Shown here one piece after another: positions 3,222-14,691 of a stretch of DNA of 39,532 nt; within the stretch, counting starts at the first letter, position 1; the number at the start of each line of letters is the position of its first letter. The notes beneath the pieces are model-generated. The model did not search any database. It was not told the DNA's origin and saw nothing but the letters and a program-made list of their open reading frames with translations. Source of the stretch: a virus; the IMG/VR virus record IMGVR_UViG_3300004369_000046, positions 1-39,532 of that record. One strand, given 5' to 3'. A program made the translations under genes and the position numbers.

Positions 3222-3519
3222 TACATGGCACTTCTGTTGCCAGGCAGTTCCCGCCCCTACATACCTAAATTAGGCTGCTAGTGCCATTTCTGGCTCAAAG
3301 TTGTCATTTGCAACTATTTGGTTTCTTGCGTTAACCGAGCTTGCGCCGGACAACTCCACTCTTCTACTACCTGCCAGTCGATCCTAAGTTCGGCCCCATC
3401 ATAAACACACTTCATGGATGAACCCACTTTTCACCTTGCGGTTAGAGTGTGTTTATGGTGGAGCCGCCGGGTACCGCCCCCGGGTCCTGTACAGCGTTTG
3501 AATTGCTTCAACGTTGCAG
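3222..3519 (-). ncRNA. ssrA: Two-piece (circularly permuted) tmRNA
   Basis: On the minus strand the order is acceptor piece, spacer, coding piece, as in alphaproteobacterial permuted tmRNA. The acceptor piece (about 3519-3456) ends with CGGCTCC-A-CCA; the coding piece begins GGGGCCG at 3397. These form a 7-bp acceptor stem with the G3-U pair that specifies alanine. The excised spacer (3398-3455) folds as a perfect 10-bp hairpin. Next come GGATCGAC, the resume region AAATAGTTGCAAATGAC (close to E. coli AAATAGTCGCAAACGAC), and the tag reading frame 3311-3273, ANDNFEPEMALAA, with TAA at 3272-3270. A hairpin at 3227-3241 closes the coding piece. The 5' and 3' ends are estimates. It tags stalled nascent proteins and frees ribosomes, working with host SmpB. 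Confidence 0.93.
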
Positions 3520-3525
3520 TTTATA

Positions 3526-3554
3526 TTTATACGCTAATTTTGTGACTTTGTCAA
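3526..3554 (-). promoter_or_regulatory. Sigma70-type promoter of the tmRNA
   Basis: Minus strand TTGACA (3554-3549), 17-bp spacer, TATAAA (3531-3526), a near-consensus promoter placing transcription start near 3519, at the tmRNA acceptor piece. The -10 extends to TATAAATA, so it also matches the late octamer; transcription could occur both early and late. Confidence 0.8.
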
Positions 3555-3628
3555 GTATTTTTTTAGCCAGCATCACGAGTCAGATAGTTTACACGGCTAT
3601 TTAAAGGAGCAAAATTTATAATCAAAAA

Positions 3629-7405: not shown

Positions 7406-7501
7406 TGGTAGTCCCGCCCGGATTCGAACCGGGATCGCTCTCTAATCTGGAGACATTTAACTGCGTATAAGGCAGGTGTTTTACCGTTAAACTACGGGAC
7501 C
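7406..7501 (-). tRNA. Atypical tRNA, apparent anticodon TAT (Ile), long variable arm
   Basis: Minus strand. Acceptor GGTCCCG/CGGGACT (first pair G-U), D arm GTTT...AAAC, T arm CCCGG-TTCGAAT-CCGGG, discriminator A, encoded CCA. The anticodon arm folds as CTGC-CTTATAC-GCAG with a C/T mismatch at its base, giving anticodon TAT (Ile, AUA). The variable region is about 26 nt and forms TCTC/GAGA, a class II feature normally seen in Leu, Ser and Tyr tRNAs. The fold is certainly tRNA-like; the isotype is uncertain. Confidence 0.8.
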
Positions 7502-7502
7502 T

Positions 7503-7586
7503 TGGTGCCCGCGGCCAGACTCGAACTGGCACGCCATAAGCGAGGGATTTTAAGTCCCTTGTGTCTACCTATTCCACCACGCGGGC
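7503..7586 (-). tRNA. tRNA-Leu (anticodon TAA)
   Basis: Class II tRNA on the minus strand. Acceptor GCCCGCG/CGCGGGC, anticodon stem GGGA/TCCC with loop CTTAAAA (anticodon TAA), a variable arm CGCTTATGGCG, T loop TTCGAGT, discriminator A and encoded CCA. It reads UUA, a codon common in AT-rich genes. Confidence 0.95.
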
Positions 7587-7590
7587 TATT

Positions 7591-7667
7591 TGGCCTGCCC
7601 TAGAGGATTCGAACCTCTGACCCACAGCTTAGAAGGCTGTTGCTCTATCCAACTGAGCTAAGGGCAG
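7591..7667 (-). tRNA. tRNA-Arg (anticodon TCT)
   Basis: Minus strand cloverleaf with acceptor CTGCCCT/AGGGCAG, D arm GCTC-AGTTGGAT-GAGC, anticodon loop CTTCTAA (TCT), T loop TTCGAAT, discriminator G and encoded CCA. It reads AGA, a codon often under-supplied in bacterial hosts and favoured by phages. Confidence 0.95.
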
Positions 7668-7671
7668 ATCT

Positions 7672-7748
7672 TGGTGGGCCCCCAGGGACTTGAACCCCGA
7701 ACCTACGGATTATGAGTCCGGTGCTCTAACCAATTGAGCTAGAGGCCC
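7672..7748 (-). tRNA. tRNA with CAT anticodon (Met or Ile2)
   Basis: Minus strand cloverleaf with acceptor GGGCCTC/GGGGCCC, D arm GCTC-AATTGGTTA-GAGC, anticodon loop CTCATAA, T loop TTCAAGT, discriminator A and encoded CCA. CAT is elongator Met, or Ile2 if the host TilS modifies C34 to lysidine. The body resembles bacterial Ile2, but I cannot separate the two by eye. Confidence 0.92.
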
Positions 7749-7781
7749 TAAACTGTGATTGTGTGAATGTCCTTCTTTTAC

Positions 7782-7873
7782 TGGCGGTGAGGGTGGGATT
7801 CGAACCCACGGTACCCATTGCTAGGTACAACAGATTAGCAATCTGCCACTTTCGGCCTCTCAGTCACCTCACC
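7782..7873 (-). tRNA. tRNA-Ser (anticodon GCT)
   Basis: Class II tRNA on the minus strand. Acceptor GGTGAGG/CCTCACC, anticodon stem CAGAT/ATCTG with loop TGCTA within TTGCTAA (anticodon GCT), a long variable arm (TACC...GGTA), T loop TTCGAAT, discriminator G and encoded CCA. It is the first gene of the tRNA cluster, about 9 nt below the likely transcription start. Confidence 0.95.
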
Positions 7874-10942: not shown

Positions 10943-12013
10943 TTAAACCTCTTCTTCAAGTACCTCTTCGGGTTCAGTATCTACCTCTAGAGCAACGGGC
11001 TCCCGATAATTTTGCATTATGGTATCTAAACAACCGTCGCTGTTTTTCTCCCATGCCTTACGGAATTGTTTTAGCTCATTGCCATTTGGTAAATCATATT
11101 TAAGCATATTACCTACTTTCTGTAACATGCCTTTCTTTTCGAACAAGTCTACTAGACCGCTGTAAGGATCCATTCCTGTTTCATACGGGATCTTAACCTG
11201 TACAGCTTCAAAAGGTTTTGCATAACGAGTTTTCATAACTTTACAAGCGGCACGAATACCATTCACATCGCTCACTTTGTTACCATCCTCGTCTTCTTTG
11301 AGCTTGAGCTTACGCATAGCAACCACAATACTTGATGCATACACAAAGCCTTGTCCGCCCGAGATCTTATCATCTGGGTCAAACATGTCTTGTGATGCAT
11401 ATGTATGGTTAGTACATACCATACCTACATTGTAACTACCAAACATATTAACACAGTTACGTACAAGTGCTGTCAGTGCTTTAGGCTTACGACCCATGTC
11501 ACCTTTCATATCGCCCTTGTCAAATTGATCCACGTCAGTGGGTGTAAGCAACATACCCAAACTATCAATAACAAACAATACTTTGGGTCGTTCTTCTTCA
11601 GCCATTGTCTTGTAGTCTGACATGAACGTGCTAATAGTTTTGGCAACGTCGTCAATCATGCTCATGCTTAGTTTTAGCAGTTTGCTCTCGTCTGTGTCTA
11701 CACCTAGTGCATGTAACCATGCCTCATCAAGTGCGTTTTCACTGTCAACGAGAACAACAAAAATACCTTGCTCTTGAGCATTCTTAACAATGTTGCCGGA
11801 GACAAAGTAACTTTTACCTGCGCCGCTCTCGCCAGCAAATACAGTTACCTTACCCATAGGAACTCCCTTGTCAAACTCTCCGCTGACAAGATAATTTAGT
11901 GCATAGTTTCCTGTTGAAACCCAGTCTGTGGGATCGTGGAAACCAACTGTCAATCCGGTGATTGACTTTGTAATATCCTTTCGGAATTTACTTACGTCAA
12001 ATGGTTTAGCCAT
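10943..12013 (-). CDS. uvsX: UvsX RecA-like recombinase
   Basis: A 356-residue RecA/RAD51-family ATPase. Walker A is GESGAGKS (61-68), the catalytic Glu follows in VDSENALDE (89-97), and Walker B is VLFVID (145-150). The L2/ssDNA region and C-terminal FRKAWEKNSDGC block match UvsX of marine T4-like phages; T4 UvsX has 391 residues. It forms filaments on ssDNA and performs strand exchange for recombination-dependent replication, with gp32 and UvsY. The C-terminus is acidic (EPEEVLEEEV). AGGTAGG precedes the ATG. The gene follows gp32 with a 125-nt structured gap (see RNA at 12040-12121), and is followed by the acidic protein and UvsY. Confidence 0.95.
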   Translation of the reverse strand: MAKPFDVSKFRKDITKSITGLTVGFHDPTDWVSTGNYALNYLVSGEFDKGVPMGKVTVFAGESGAGKSYFVSGNIVKNAQEQGIFVVLVDSENALDEAWLHALGVDTDESKLLKLSMSMIDDVAKTISTFMSDYKTMAEEERPKVLFVIDSLGMLLTPTDVDQFDKGDMKGDMGRKPKALTALVRNCVNMFGSYNVGMVCTNHTYASQDMFDPDDKISGGQGFVYASSIVVAMRKLKLKEDEDGNKVSDVNGIRAACKVMKTRYAKPFEAVQVKIPYETGMDPYSGLVDLFEKKGMLQKVGNMLKYDLPNGNELKQFRKAWEKNSDGCLDTIMQNYREPVALEVDTEPEEVLEEEV

Positions 12014-12039
12014 ATTTTTCCTACCTTGTTAAAAGAATA

Positions 12040-12121
12040 GATGGGGATGTCAAACCTTAGGTCTGATGTTTCTATTAGTATTCTACACCAACAACTAATG
12101 AAGGTGTGACAGAGCCCCATC
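12040..12121 (-). ncRNA. Structured RNA with possible pseudoknot upstream of uvsX
   Basis: On the minus strand an outer stem GATGGGG/CCCCATC (12121-12115 with 12046-12040) encloses two helices: ACACC/GGTGT (12107-12103 with 12089-12085) and TCAGACC/GGTTTGA with a TAA loop (12066-12060 with 12056-12050). The first helix loop contains ATTAGT (12099-12094), perfectly complementary to ACTAAT (12079-12074) just beyond it, so it can form a pseudoknot or an alternative hairpin. It ends about 27 nt before the uvsX start. T4 gp32 binds a pseudoknot in its own mRNA; a similar control of uvsX is inference. Confidence 0.6.
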
Positions 12122-12138
12122 AACTGCTACACTTCTAT

Positions 12139-13125
12139 TTAATTAGAAGCCTGTCTGCTACGAATCATAGCGAGGATATCTTCAGTCCTCTTAGATGATC
12201 CGCCTTCAGCGGCTGTATTAACCACTGGAGCTTCTGCGACAGCGGGCTCATCGTCGACATCGTCAACTTGAGCTGGAGCAGTCGCAGGCGTTGGTGCCGG
12301 AGCCGATGTAGAGCTCTCAGAAGCATTTGCACCTCCGCCTGCGAATCCGCTAGGCTTATAATAAGAGGCCCAGCGGTCCGGATCGTATGCCTGTCCGTCT
12401 ACTGATGCTTCGAACATTTCTTTCATGACTTTGAGCTCAGTTTCGTTAGGCTTCTTAGGTAGGAAGTCAGCAAGGTTATGAAGACCAAATTGGTCGATTG
12501 CCGCACGTTCAACTTCGGTCAGTGCGGTTTCCTTACGAGCGTACTTGGAAGTGCTGTAGTCAGCATATCCACCCTTGCTGGTCTTAACGACATTGAAGTC
12601 TAGACCACGTTCGTAATCAGTTGGAAGTTCTTCCATCTCCGGGTCCATGAGAGCCGCTTTAACAATGTTAAAGATCTGAGGGCTAATAATAAACCTGCGG
12701 ATTGGATTCTCAGGCGTTGAGTCGTCTGCAAGTGAACTTTCACGTACAAAGCCTTGGAACAAGTAAGAACGCTTCTTCCAATACTTACGACCCATTTCCT
12801 CAAGACTTGAGTCTTTGAACCATGTACGTACTTCTGCGAGAATAGGACAACTGTCGCCCCACATCTCTACGCAAGGTACCTGTACAATTTGAGGTTTGCT
12901 ATTAACGTCTCCTTTGATCCCATTGAATGGAAGTCGGATCATGTTGCGCTCTACCCAAAAGAAATCATTCTTTGGGTTTGAGTCTGGAAGGAAACGGATT
13001 CGGGAAGTTGAGCCCTCTGGGATATTCCAGTGAGCAAAGATGGCATTGTCGCCACCACTTTGATTTGAACCTGTACGGTTCTCTTGAGCGTTTAGTTTTG
13101 CTCGAATTTCAGCCAATGTAGCCAT
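12139..13125 (-). CDS. 32: Single-stranded DNA-binding protein gp32
   Basis: A 328-residue homologue of T4 gp32 (301 aa). It has the N-terminal basic/cooperativity segment (MATLAEIRAKLNAQ), an OB-fold core with IRFLPDS, FFWVERNMIRLPF and VQVPCVEMWGDSCPILAEVR (the Cys pair in the zinc-ribbon position), LFQGFVRES and FIISPQI, and an acidic low-complexity linker (QVDDVDDEPAVAEA) before the tail. The protein coats replicating ssDNA and organises UvsX, UvsY and polymerase. A sigma70-type promoter, a hairpin and AAAGGAG lie upstream; the hairpin is a candidate autoregulatory site. It heads the gp32-uvsX-uvsY operon. Confidence 0.93.
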   Translation of the reverse strand: MATLAEIRAKLNAQENRTGSNQSGGDNAIFAHWNIPEGSTSRIRFLPDSNPKNDFFWVERNMIRLPFNGIKGDVNSKPQIVQVPCVEMWGDSCPILAEVRTWFKDSSLEEMGRKYWKKRSYLFQGFVRESSLADDSTPENPIRRFIISPQIFNIVKAALMDPEMEELPTDYERGLDFNVVKTSKGGYADYSTSKYARKETALTEVERAAIDQFGLHNLADFLPKKPNETELKVMKEMFEASVDGQAYDPDRWASYYKPSGFAGGGANASESSTSAPAPTPATAPAQVDDVDDEPAVAEAPVVNTAAEGGSSKRTEDILAMIRSRQASN

Positions 13126-13141
13126 AATGTTTTCTCCTTTA

Positions 13142-13171
13142 ATGTGCCATAATGTTTTTGCCTGAGCACAT
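13142..13171 (-). promoter_or_regulatory. Hairpin and repeated start region in the gp32 leader
   Basis: A 6-bp hairpin ATGTGC/GCACAT with an 18-nt loop lies immediately before the gp32 Shine-Dalgarno. A 13-bp direct repeat (GCCATAATGTTTT at 13121-13133 and 13146-13158) duplicates the start-codon context: the upstream copy holds ATG GCA CAT TAA, a three-codon mini-ORF. This may mediate gp32 autoregulation or be a decoy start. Confidence 0.4.
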
Positions 13172-13177
13172 ACACAC

Positions 13178-13206
13178 AGTATATGCTATTTTTATTTAGC
13201 AGTCAA
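13178..13206 (-). promoter_or_regulatory. Sigma70-type promoter of gp32
   Basis: Minus strand TTGACT (13206-13201), 17-bp spacer, TATACT (13183-13178), placing the transcript start near 13171 and a roughly 46-nt leader. Confidence 0.75.
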
Positions 13207-13230
13207 AGGAAAATTTTACCAAAATAGATT

Positions 13231-14691
13231 TTATGAAATGCCGGCTAGTTTTTTAAGACTATCTACCGATTCTTTGGTAGGATCTTCAGCTGGTGCTTCT
13301 GCGTCAGTAGGTGTTTCGGCAGGTTGCTCTTCTGTGTCAGCTGGTGCTTCTGCTTCAGGTTTCCAAGTTCTAAGATATTCAAATATCTTAGCCATTGATT
13401 CTTGGATGTCTCTGCTTACTGATGCATTGCCAGTAACTATATCTTTATGAATATTAGTAAACCATCTTACGATAGTTGGGCGGGCATCGGCTTCCGGACC
13501 TTTGACTTCTGCCATATCGGCAATATCGTCAAATAGTTCGTCATCGCCGAGAATGTCATACATCGCAGATGTAGCATCGTTGCCTTCTGGACCAAACTGG
13601 ATCGGTTTGGCAAAAATACGCTTGAACTTTTCAACATCTTCGTCGCTCTCAGGCAATGCCCAAGTGCCTTCGGTTAGCTTGTCAGCCCAATTTTCAAATT
13701 CAGTTGTATTGGCTTCTATAGCCGGACGATTTGCAAATGCTTTGTAAACATAAGGAAGAGCTTCTTCAATACGTTGGTCAATAAAACGTTTTGTGAAACG
13801 CTCTTTAAGCGCCTCTTCATCTTCCATTTCAACCATTTCTGGTGCCATATAGTCTTCCCAAAATGCTTGATAGCCTTTTGGTGTACTCATTCTATCCAAG
13901 CTCTTACGACATTCATAATAGCGTTCTCTAGCACATTCGACCAAACTAGGAACTTCGCTATCCTCAAATGCTTCAATGTTGCGTGTAGCACGTAGGAACT
14001 TACTTAGTTGTTGCATTTCTTCTACTATTGCGTAGATCTCTTTTGTACGGTCATCCGAGATCATGCCGCCATGTGCTACATGCTGTCCAACTGCACGAGC
14101 GGCTCGCATATTAGTAAACGGTAGTCTAAAACGCTCACCTAGATTATTTTCAACAAAAATAACATCGATATTACGACTACGTGCGCCACGCTTATCCTCA
14201 TCAACTTCTGTGCGATGTCTGATGATTAAACGTGTTTCTCCGACGTGGTCGTAGCTTTTCTTTCTAGTACCGTACATTTTACTTTCCTGAATATCTATTT
14301 CGTTTGACTGCCAGTTACCACTAGTTGTTTGTTGTTTGATGTCTCTGAGATTCAATGAACTGCGATTGATGTCTCTGGTATCGAATGTTAGCAGGTTTCT
14401 TCTAGCAAATCTACGCATTTCTTTTAAAAATGTAAACCAATCATCTTGCTCTTCTTTAGATAAGTTGTTAGATAACTCTTTGCTAAAATAAATCTTTAGT
14501 GATTGATCGTCAATGATACTAACTGTAACATTACCAAACTCATTTCCATTTACGGAGTAGTCAAAGTTATAAAAACGTGCGAGTGATGAGTCATCTGTAG
14601 CTCGAGCTTTTTCGTCGCCAAGACTTATACGATCAAAGCGGCTTCGTAGCTTGTCAAAAAGTGCTTCTGCTATGCTGTTAAGTTCTCTCAT
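13231..14691 (-). CDS. Conserved marine phage protein with C-terminal LAGI tail (486 aa)
   Basis: A 486-residue hydrophilic protein. From memory similar long proteins occur near the terminase in marine T4-like phages; I know no function. Residues 1-245 look like an alpha/beta domain (FDKLRSRFDRISLG, RLIIRHRTEVDEDKRG, FRLPFTNMRAARAVG). The remainder is helical and acidic, followed by an Ala/Pro/Glu/Thr linker (about 448-472) and a short end ESVDSLKKLAGIS. The same LAGI-type motif occurs in the 70-aa protein at 17459-17671. A linker plus short helix suits a capsid-targeting or docking tail (inference). It begins 14 nt after the oxygenase-like gene; a late-type octamer fills that gap. Confidence 0.75.
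   Translation of the reverse strand: MRELNSIAEALFDKLRSRFDRISLGDEKARATDDSSLARFYNFDYSVNGNEFGNVTVSIIDDQSLKIYFSKELSNNLSKEEQDDWFTFLKEMRRFARRNLLTFDTRDINRSSLNLRDIKQQTTSGNWQSNEIDIQESKMYGTRKKSYDHVGETRLIIRHRTEVDEDKRGARSRNIDVIFVENNLGERFRLPFTNMRAARAVGQHVAHGGMISDDRTKEIYAIVEEMQQLSKFLRATRNIEAFEDSEVPSLVECARERYYECRKSLDRMSTPKGYQAFWEDYMAPEMVEMEDEEALKERFTKRFIDQRIEEALPYVYKAFANRPAIEANTTEFENWADKLTEGTWALPESDEDVEKFKRIFAKPIQFGPEGNDATSAMYDILGDDELFDDIADMAEVKGPEADARPTIVRWFTNIHKDIVTGNASVSRDIQESMAKIFEYLRTWKPEAEAPADTEEQPAETPTDAEAPAEDPTKESVDSLKKLAGIS

Follow-up and report, generated by a model that had tools for sequence, protein, structure and literature searches.

Genes and RNA features at the locus

The window, meaning the whole stretch of DNA analysed, is a 39.5-kb viral contig from an IMG/VR record, and among isolates its uvsX is closest to those of jumbo phages such as Sinorhizobium phage Phosso, Agrobacterium phage Atu_ph07, the GAP32/121Q/RaK2 group and Xanthomonas phage XbC2. 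The minus strand carries a gene for a gp32-like single-stranded DNA binding protein (positions 12139–13125, PHROG 1192, E 1e-70), followed by uvsX encoding a RecA-like recombinase (10943–12013, Pfam RecA 1.8e-16, PHROG 97 UvsX-like 8.5e-72). The gp32 product has matches among the PHROG SSB families and none in Pfam. The genes are separated by a spacer of 125 nt, with an 82-nt element in its middle (12040–12121, minus strand), in the 3' untranslated region of gp32. The closing stem of the element, P1, begins 17 nt past the gp32 stop codon and is followed by the U-rich flank TATTCTTTTAAC (12028–12039, minus strand) and by the Shine-Dalgarno region of uvsX, AAGGTAGG (12020–12027, minus strand), which lies 12 nt beyond the end of P1 and outside all helices of the element. 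A promoter scan found no promoter-like site on the minus strand within the element, and the spacer does not contain an obvious separate promoter for uvsX.

Rfam searches with gathering and permissive thresholds gave nothing relevant for the element; the weak matches in the window at E<=10 belong to unrelated families and are far below the cut-offs, and the corresponding elements of relatives have no match at E<=1. BLASTN of the spacer region against phages found nothing. A tRNA identity was considered and rejected, as ARAGORN does not call the element despite its 7-bp closing stem. Elsewhere in the window there is a permuted tmRNA of the alphaproteobacterial kind (3223–3558, minus strand; Rfam alpha_tmRNA 113.6 bits, tmRNA_permuted 103.1 bits) that is not called by ARAGORN, five tRNA genes (7406–7873, minus strand; Ile-TAT, Leu-TAA, Arg-TCT, Met-CAT and Ser-GCT), and a tRNA-Asn at 1027–1102.

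At the other end of gp32, the leader (13126–13240, minus strand) consists of about 115 noncoding nucleotides that are almost unchanged between the window and its relative L082, while the gp32 coding DNA of the two is about 85% identical. It contains a TTGACT-17-TATACT promoter, a TAAATA word resembling a late promoter, a palindrome over the -10 region, GCATATAC-TGTG-TGTATGTGC, and GGCA boxes found again in other leaders of the family. Just ahead of gp32 (13126–13160, minus strand) a short frame of 3 codons, ATGGCACATTAA, repeats the gp32 start region (AACATTATGGCACATT / AACATTATGGCTACATT). The leader is far more conserved than the 82-nt element and, judged by its sequence, would be the better candidate for autoregulation of gp32.

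Folding of the element and its two types

The prediction of a structured, possibly pseudoknotted RNA at this site was based on a 7-bp closing stem, two inner helices and a perfect 6-bp match between ATTAGT and ACTAAT. All of these are present in the sequence of the minus strand, which encodes both gp32 and uvsX. P1 is formed by GATGGGG (12115–12121) and CCCCATC (12040–12046), giving 7 Watson-Crick pairs of which 5 are GC; it is present in every fold considered and is the solid part of the element. Inside its loop of about 68 nt, helix S1 pairs ACACC (12103–12107) with GGTGT (12085–12089) over 5 bp, a third helix is formed by CAGACC TAA GGTTTG (12051–12065, with CAGACC at 12060–12065 and GGTTTG at 12051–12056), and helix S2 would join ATTAGT in the S1 loop (12094–12099) to ACTAAT (12074–12079). 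Apart from P1 and its U-rich tail, no U-tailed 7-bp stem with a large loop (25–80 nt) occurs on the minus strand of the window; the hairpins elsewhere in this phage are ordinary ones with short loops, and the element is not reported by a scan for consensus terminators with loops of 3–8 nt.

The element folds better than its dinucleotide shuffles (z -3.1, 2/200). The minimum free energy fold is a rod of P1, UGUCA/UGACA and ACCUU/AAGGU at -26.8 kcal/mol, in which TGTCA (12107–12111) and TGACA (12048–12052) extend P1 as P1b. The three nested helices of the original prediction reach -20.4 kcal/mol, about 6 kcal/mol worse, and are thus disfavoured in the window by the nested model; S2 is worth about -2.5, the pseudoknot being scored by stacking energy only. 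The pseudoknot score of the inner domain was matched by 74 of 500 mononucleotide and 126 of 500 dinucleotide shuffles, so that chance could account for the inner pairing if the window is taken by itself. Rod and pseudoknot are predicted to be mutually exclusive in the window. A 15-bp GU-rich alternative around P1 was rejected as it is not kept in L202. The pseudoknot-core pattern ACACC...ATTAGT...GGTGT had 31 matches in viral contigs, a collection large enough for 16 fixed bases to be expected by chance.

The closest relatives split into two types. L202 and L203 carry true homologues of the window element, while L193–L201 and L082 have at the same site a sister type, CTGCGAG-36 nt-CTCGCAG, which is wholly unlike the window type in sequence. 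The flanks of the two types are nearly identical (ATTCTTTTAAYAAGGTAGG), and both consist of a 7-bp stem followed by the same U-rich flank, but the stems differ in sequence and the inner domains, of 36 nt in the sister type and about 68 nt in the window type, have nothing in common. The form is thus retained while the sequence is replaced. The uvsX of L202 is nearer to those of L193 and L196 than to that of the window, yet its element is of the window type, and in L199 both gp32 and the element are of the L193 type while uvsX is of the L200 type. From these sequence comparisons L202 and L199 are apparently natural recombinants, in which the element type segregates with gp32. The element word GATGGGGCTCTGTCA..CC was found only in L202 and L203, indicating that the element is not a dispersed mobile RNA.

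The homologues give some support to the inner helices. S2 changes from AUUAGU/ACUAAU in the window to UUUAGU/GCUAAA in L202, with one A-U to U-A double change and an additional A-to-G change that leaves U-G, and S1 reappears shifted inward by one step (ACACC/GGUGU to CCAAC/GUUGG). P1b is kept in L202 as TGTCA/TGATA, and the third helix partly, as GACC CTAG GGTT with no covariation. In the sister type only four inner positions differ between L193 and L196/L200 and none breaks a pair; two of the four together replace a U-A pair by C-G in AUCUC/GAGAU, and a G-U is turned into G-C in CCGG/UCGG. When columns were permuted, a compensatory-change helix as long as S2 arose in 250 of 3000 permutations for window and L202 (p about 0.08) and in 90 of 3000 for L193 and L196 (p about 0.03), with two distinct sequences per type, small numbers, and changes found after looking. 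By energy, the pseudoknot is better than most shuffles in the sister type (matched for L196 by 26/2000 mononucleotide and 23/2000 dinucleotide shuffles) and in L096, an unrelated case with a large loop (7/2000 and 23/2000), but for the window and L202 it is no better than shuffles. An H-type pseudoknot can form in each of the two types; the evidence is suggestive and puts the odds at roughly even in the sister type and lower in the window. The prediction of a structured RNA that may be pseudoknotted is supported to this extent, with one compensatory pair change in each type.

Hairpins at gp32 ends in related phages

Scans of viral contigs gave about 180 distinct gp32 3' flanks, including 55 gp32–uvsX spacers in which uvsX starts 40–140 nt downstream. 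In 49 of the 55 spacers a hairpin better than shuffles is present (p<=0.05), typically of 9–12 bp, GC-rich and with a loop of 3–7 nt, and the 3' flanks of the family hairpins are enriched in U (4.8 of the 10 nucleotides after the stem, background 2.9). In some relatives gp32 and uvsX are only 9–13 nt apart with nothing between them. Where gp32 ends without a neighbouring uvsX, a hairpin follows within 70 nt in 89 of 109 cases (shuffles 6.6%), whereas regions upstream of uvsX without a neighbouring gp32 have one in only 13 of 129 (shuffles 2.3%). Among isolated phages, the hairpin after gp32 is present in Phosso, Ettore, Vibrio 2.275.O, GAP32, Atu_ph07 and 121Q, and in Ettore the downstream gene is a different one, not uvsX. 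Since the hairpin follows gp32 ends and not uvsX, and since the element is inherited together with gp32, the structure belongs to the 3' end of the gp32 message. The proposed control of uvsX through the element, by gp32 or by a ligand, is not supported: such a structure is rare before a uvsX that has no gp32 next to it, and the element leaves the uvsX Shine-Dalgarno region uncovered.

The window clade is the exception to the plain hairpin, P1 enclosing a large inner domain. The hairpins of the six isolated phages occupy the same genomic place with a GC-rich stem, and in most of them, as in the window, A/U-rich sequence lies downstream; unlike the window element they are plain short-loop hairpins with no inner domain. 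L140, taken up as another large-loop case, was rejected, as the stretch reads as the open frame of the next gene. A gp32-tail pattern had five matches in bacterial genome contigs, on assorted bacterial and archaeal contigs, and these were taken for chance. In the gp32–uvsX spacers of L121 and L132 a TTGACA is found inside the loop of the post-gp32 hairpin, followed in L121 by TATAAT 17 nt downstream and in L132 by a weaker TATATT-like word; by sequence, terminator and uvsX promoter seem to overlap in these two.

A probable 3'-end structure of the gp32 message

The element is best explained as an expanded form of a 3'-end structure of the gp32 message, resembling an intrinsic terminator or a 3'-stabilising hairpin and standing at a site kept in the family; we put the probability of this reading at about 0.7. 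RNA polymerase passing the end of gp32 would transcribe the GC-rich 7-bp P1 and then the U-rich run, where some transcription may stop; alternatively P1 might block 3'-to-5' exonucleases after processing. Either stop or protection at P1 would lead to gp32 being made in excess, and the remaining polymerases would read through into uvsX, the terminator being possibly leaky. The clade-specific inner domain, in the place of a loop of 3–7 nt, probably has a fold of its own, which may be an H-type pseudoknot, and would thereby bring the two strands of P1 together. No T4 message is more stable than the gene 32 mRNA (PMC3014915), in keeping with a need to protect the end of this message.

As in intrinsic terminators and 3'-stabilising hairpins, a GC-rich stem stands just past the stop codon, followed by a U-rich run, and the position is conserved while the sequence turns over; a stable GC-rich stem after the gene end is found both in P1 and in the hairpins throughout the family. 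Unlike intrinsic terminators, the two element types have an inner domain of 36–68 nt with a possible pseudoknot instead of a short loop, and an adjacent downstream gene of the same pathway. Against termination also speak the U-tract of TATTCTTTTAAC, which is interrupted (7 T of 12), and the size of the loop, intrinsic terminators seldom having one of 68 nt. Stop-codon read-through stimulated by a pseudoknot was rejected, as the gp32 frame closes within 4 codons past the stop in the window.

It is a real possibility, somewhat short of even odds, that the inner domain is functionless, a neutral insertion into the loop with the pseudoknot as a chance match, so that only P1 matters. The shuffle-level scores of the window and L202, the modest permutation values and the lack of any inner sequence common to the two types all agree with this. 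On the other hand, an H-type pseudoknot can form in two independent types and in L096, none of the substitutions that separate variants disrupts a tested helix, and in each type the inner domain has persisted through the divergence of the clade. At the other extreme, the loop after the SSB gene might have been replaced, independently in sequence, by pseudoknotted domains that assist the terminator, with conditional termination setting or switching the ratio of gp32 to recombinase. This we regard as rather unlikely. A literature search found no pseudoknot terminators linked to SSB genes.

A conditional terminator or attenuator, in which a protein or ligand acting on a switch between pseudoknot and rod would decide whether P1 forms and thus the read-through into uvsX, is unlikely. 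The mutually exclusive folds predicted in the window, the replacement of the plain loop in one clade only and the pseudoknot energies of L196 and L096 are compatible with it, but the terminator stem P1 is present in every fold considered, the inner sequences differ between the types so that a specific ligand pocket is improbable, and the Rfam results for relatives and window offer no known family.

That gp32 or another phage protein binds a pseudoknot operator, spreads over the A/U-rich Shine-Dalgarno region and represses translation of uvsX is quite unlikely. The arrangement does recall the operator of gene 32 in T4, T2 and RB69, where an H-type pseudoknot, in the element a suggestive one, also lies beside the gp32 gene with unstructured A/U-rich sequence and a ribosome-binding site next to it; the order resembles that of the T4 operator (PMC535899), the pseudoknot coming first and being followed by an unstructured A/U-rich stretch that contains UUAA, then by the Shine-Dalgarno and the start codon, and both element types have inner domains capable of a pseudoknot. 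The T4 pseudoknot, however, is located 5' of gp32 and acts on gp32 itself (PMC535899), in the leader of the gene that it regulates, while the present element is kept with the 3' end of gp32, has a 7-bp stem around its pseudoknot, is unrelated in sequence and would act on another gene; the window gp32 also differs from the T4, T2 and RB69 system in matching PHROG SSB families and no Pfam family. Moreover the structure tracks gp32 and is co-inherited with it, nearly all relatives have a simple hairpin only, some have gp32 and uvsX only 9–13 nt apart, the uvsX leader lacks the GGCA boxes that are repeated in the gp32 leader, and P1 ends 12 nt ahead of the Shine-Dalgarno region. The suggestion of a ligand-sensing riboswitch controlling uvsX found no sign in its favour apart from the alternative pairings and is very improbable, there being no conserved unpaired core even between the closest relatives (a riboswitch aptamer should be conserved across homologues and the inner sequences of the two types are unrelated), no Rfam match, and an element that belongs to the gp32 end.

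A plain hairpin at the end of gp32 is ordinary. What is new is that within one clade the loop has grown into folded domains whose sequences are unrelated, at a site in the jumbo phages where the position of the hairpin is kept and its sequence replaced wholesale. Should the inner domain influence termination, it would provide a compact natural dosing of two replication proteins from one transcript. For the regulation of these genes, attention shifts from the control of uvsX to the 3' end of gp32 and to the conserved leader of gp32.
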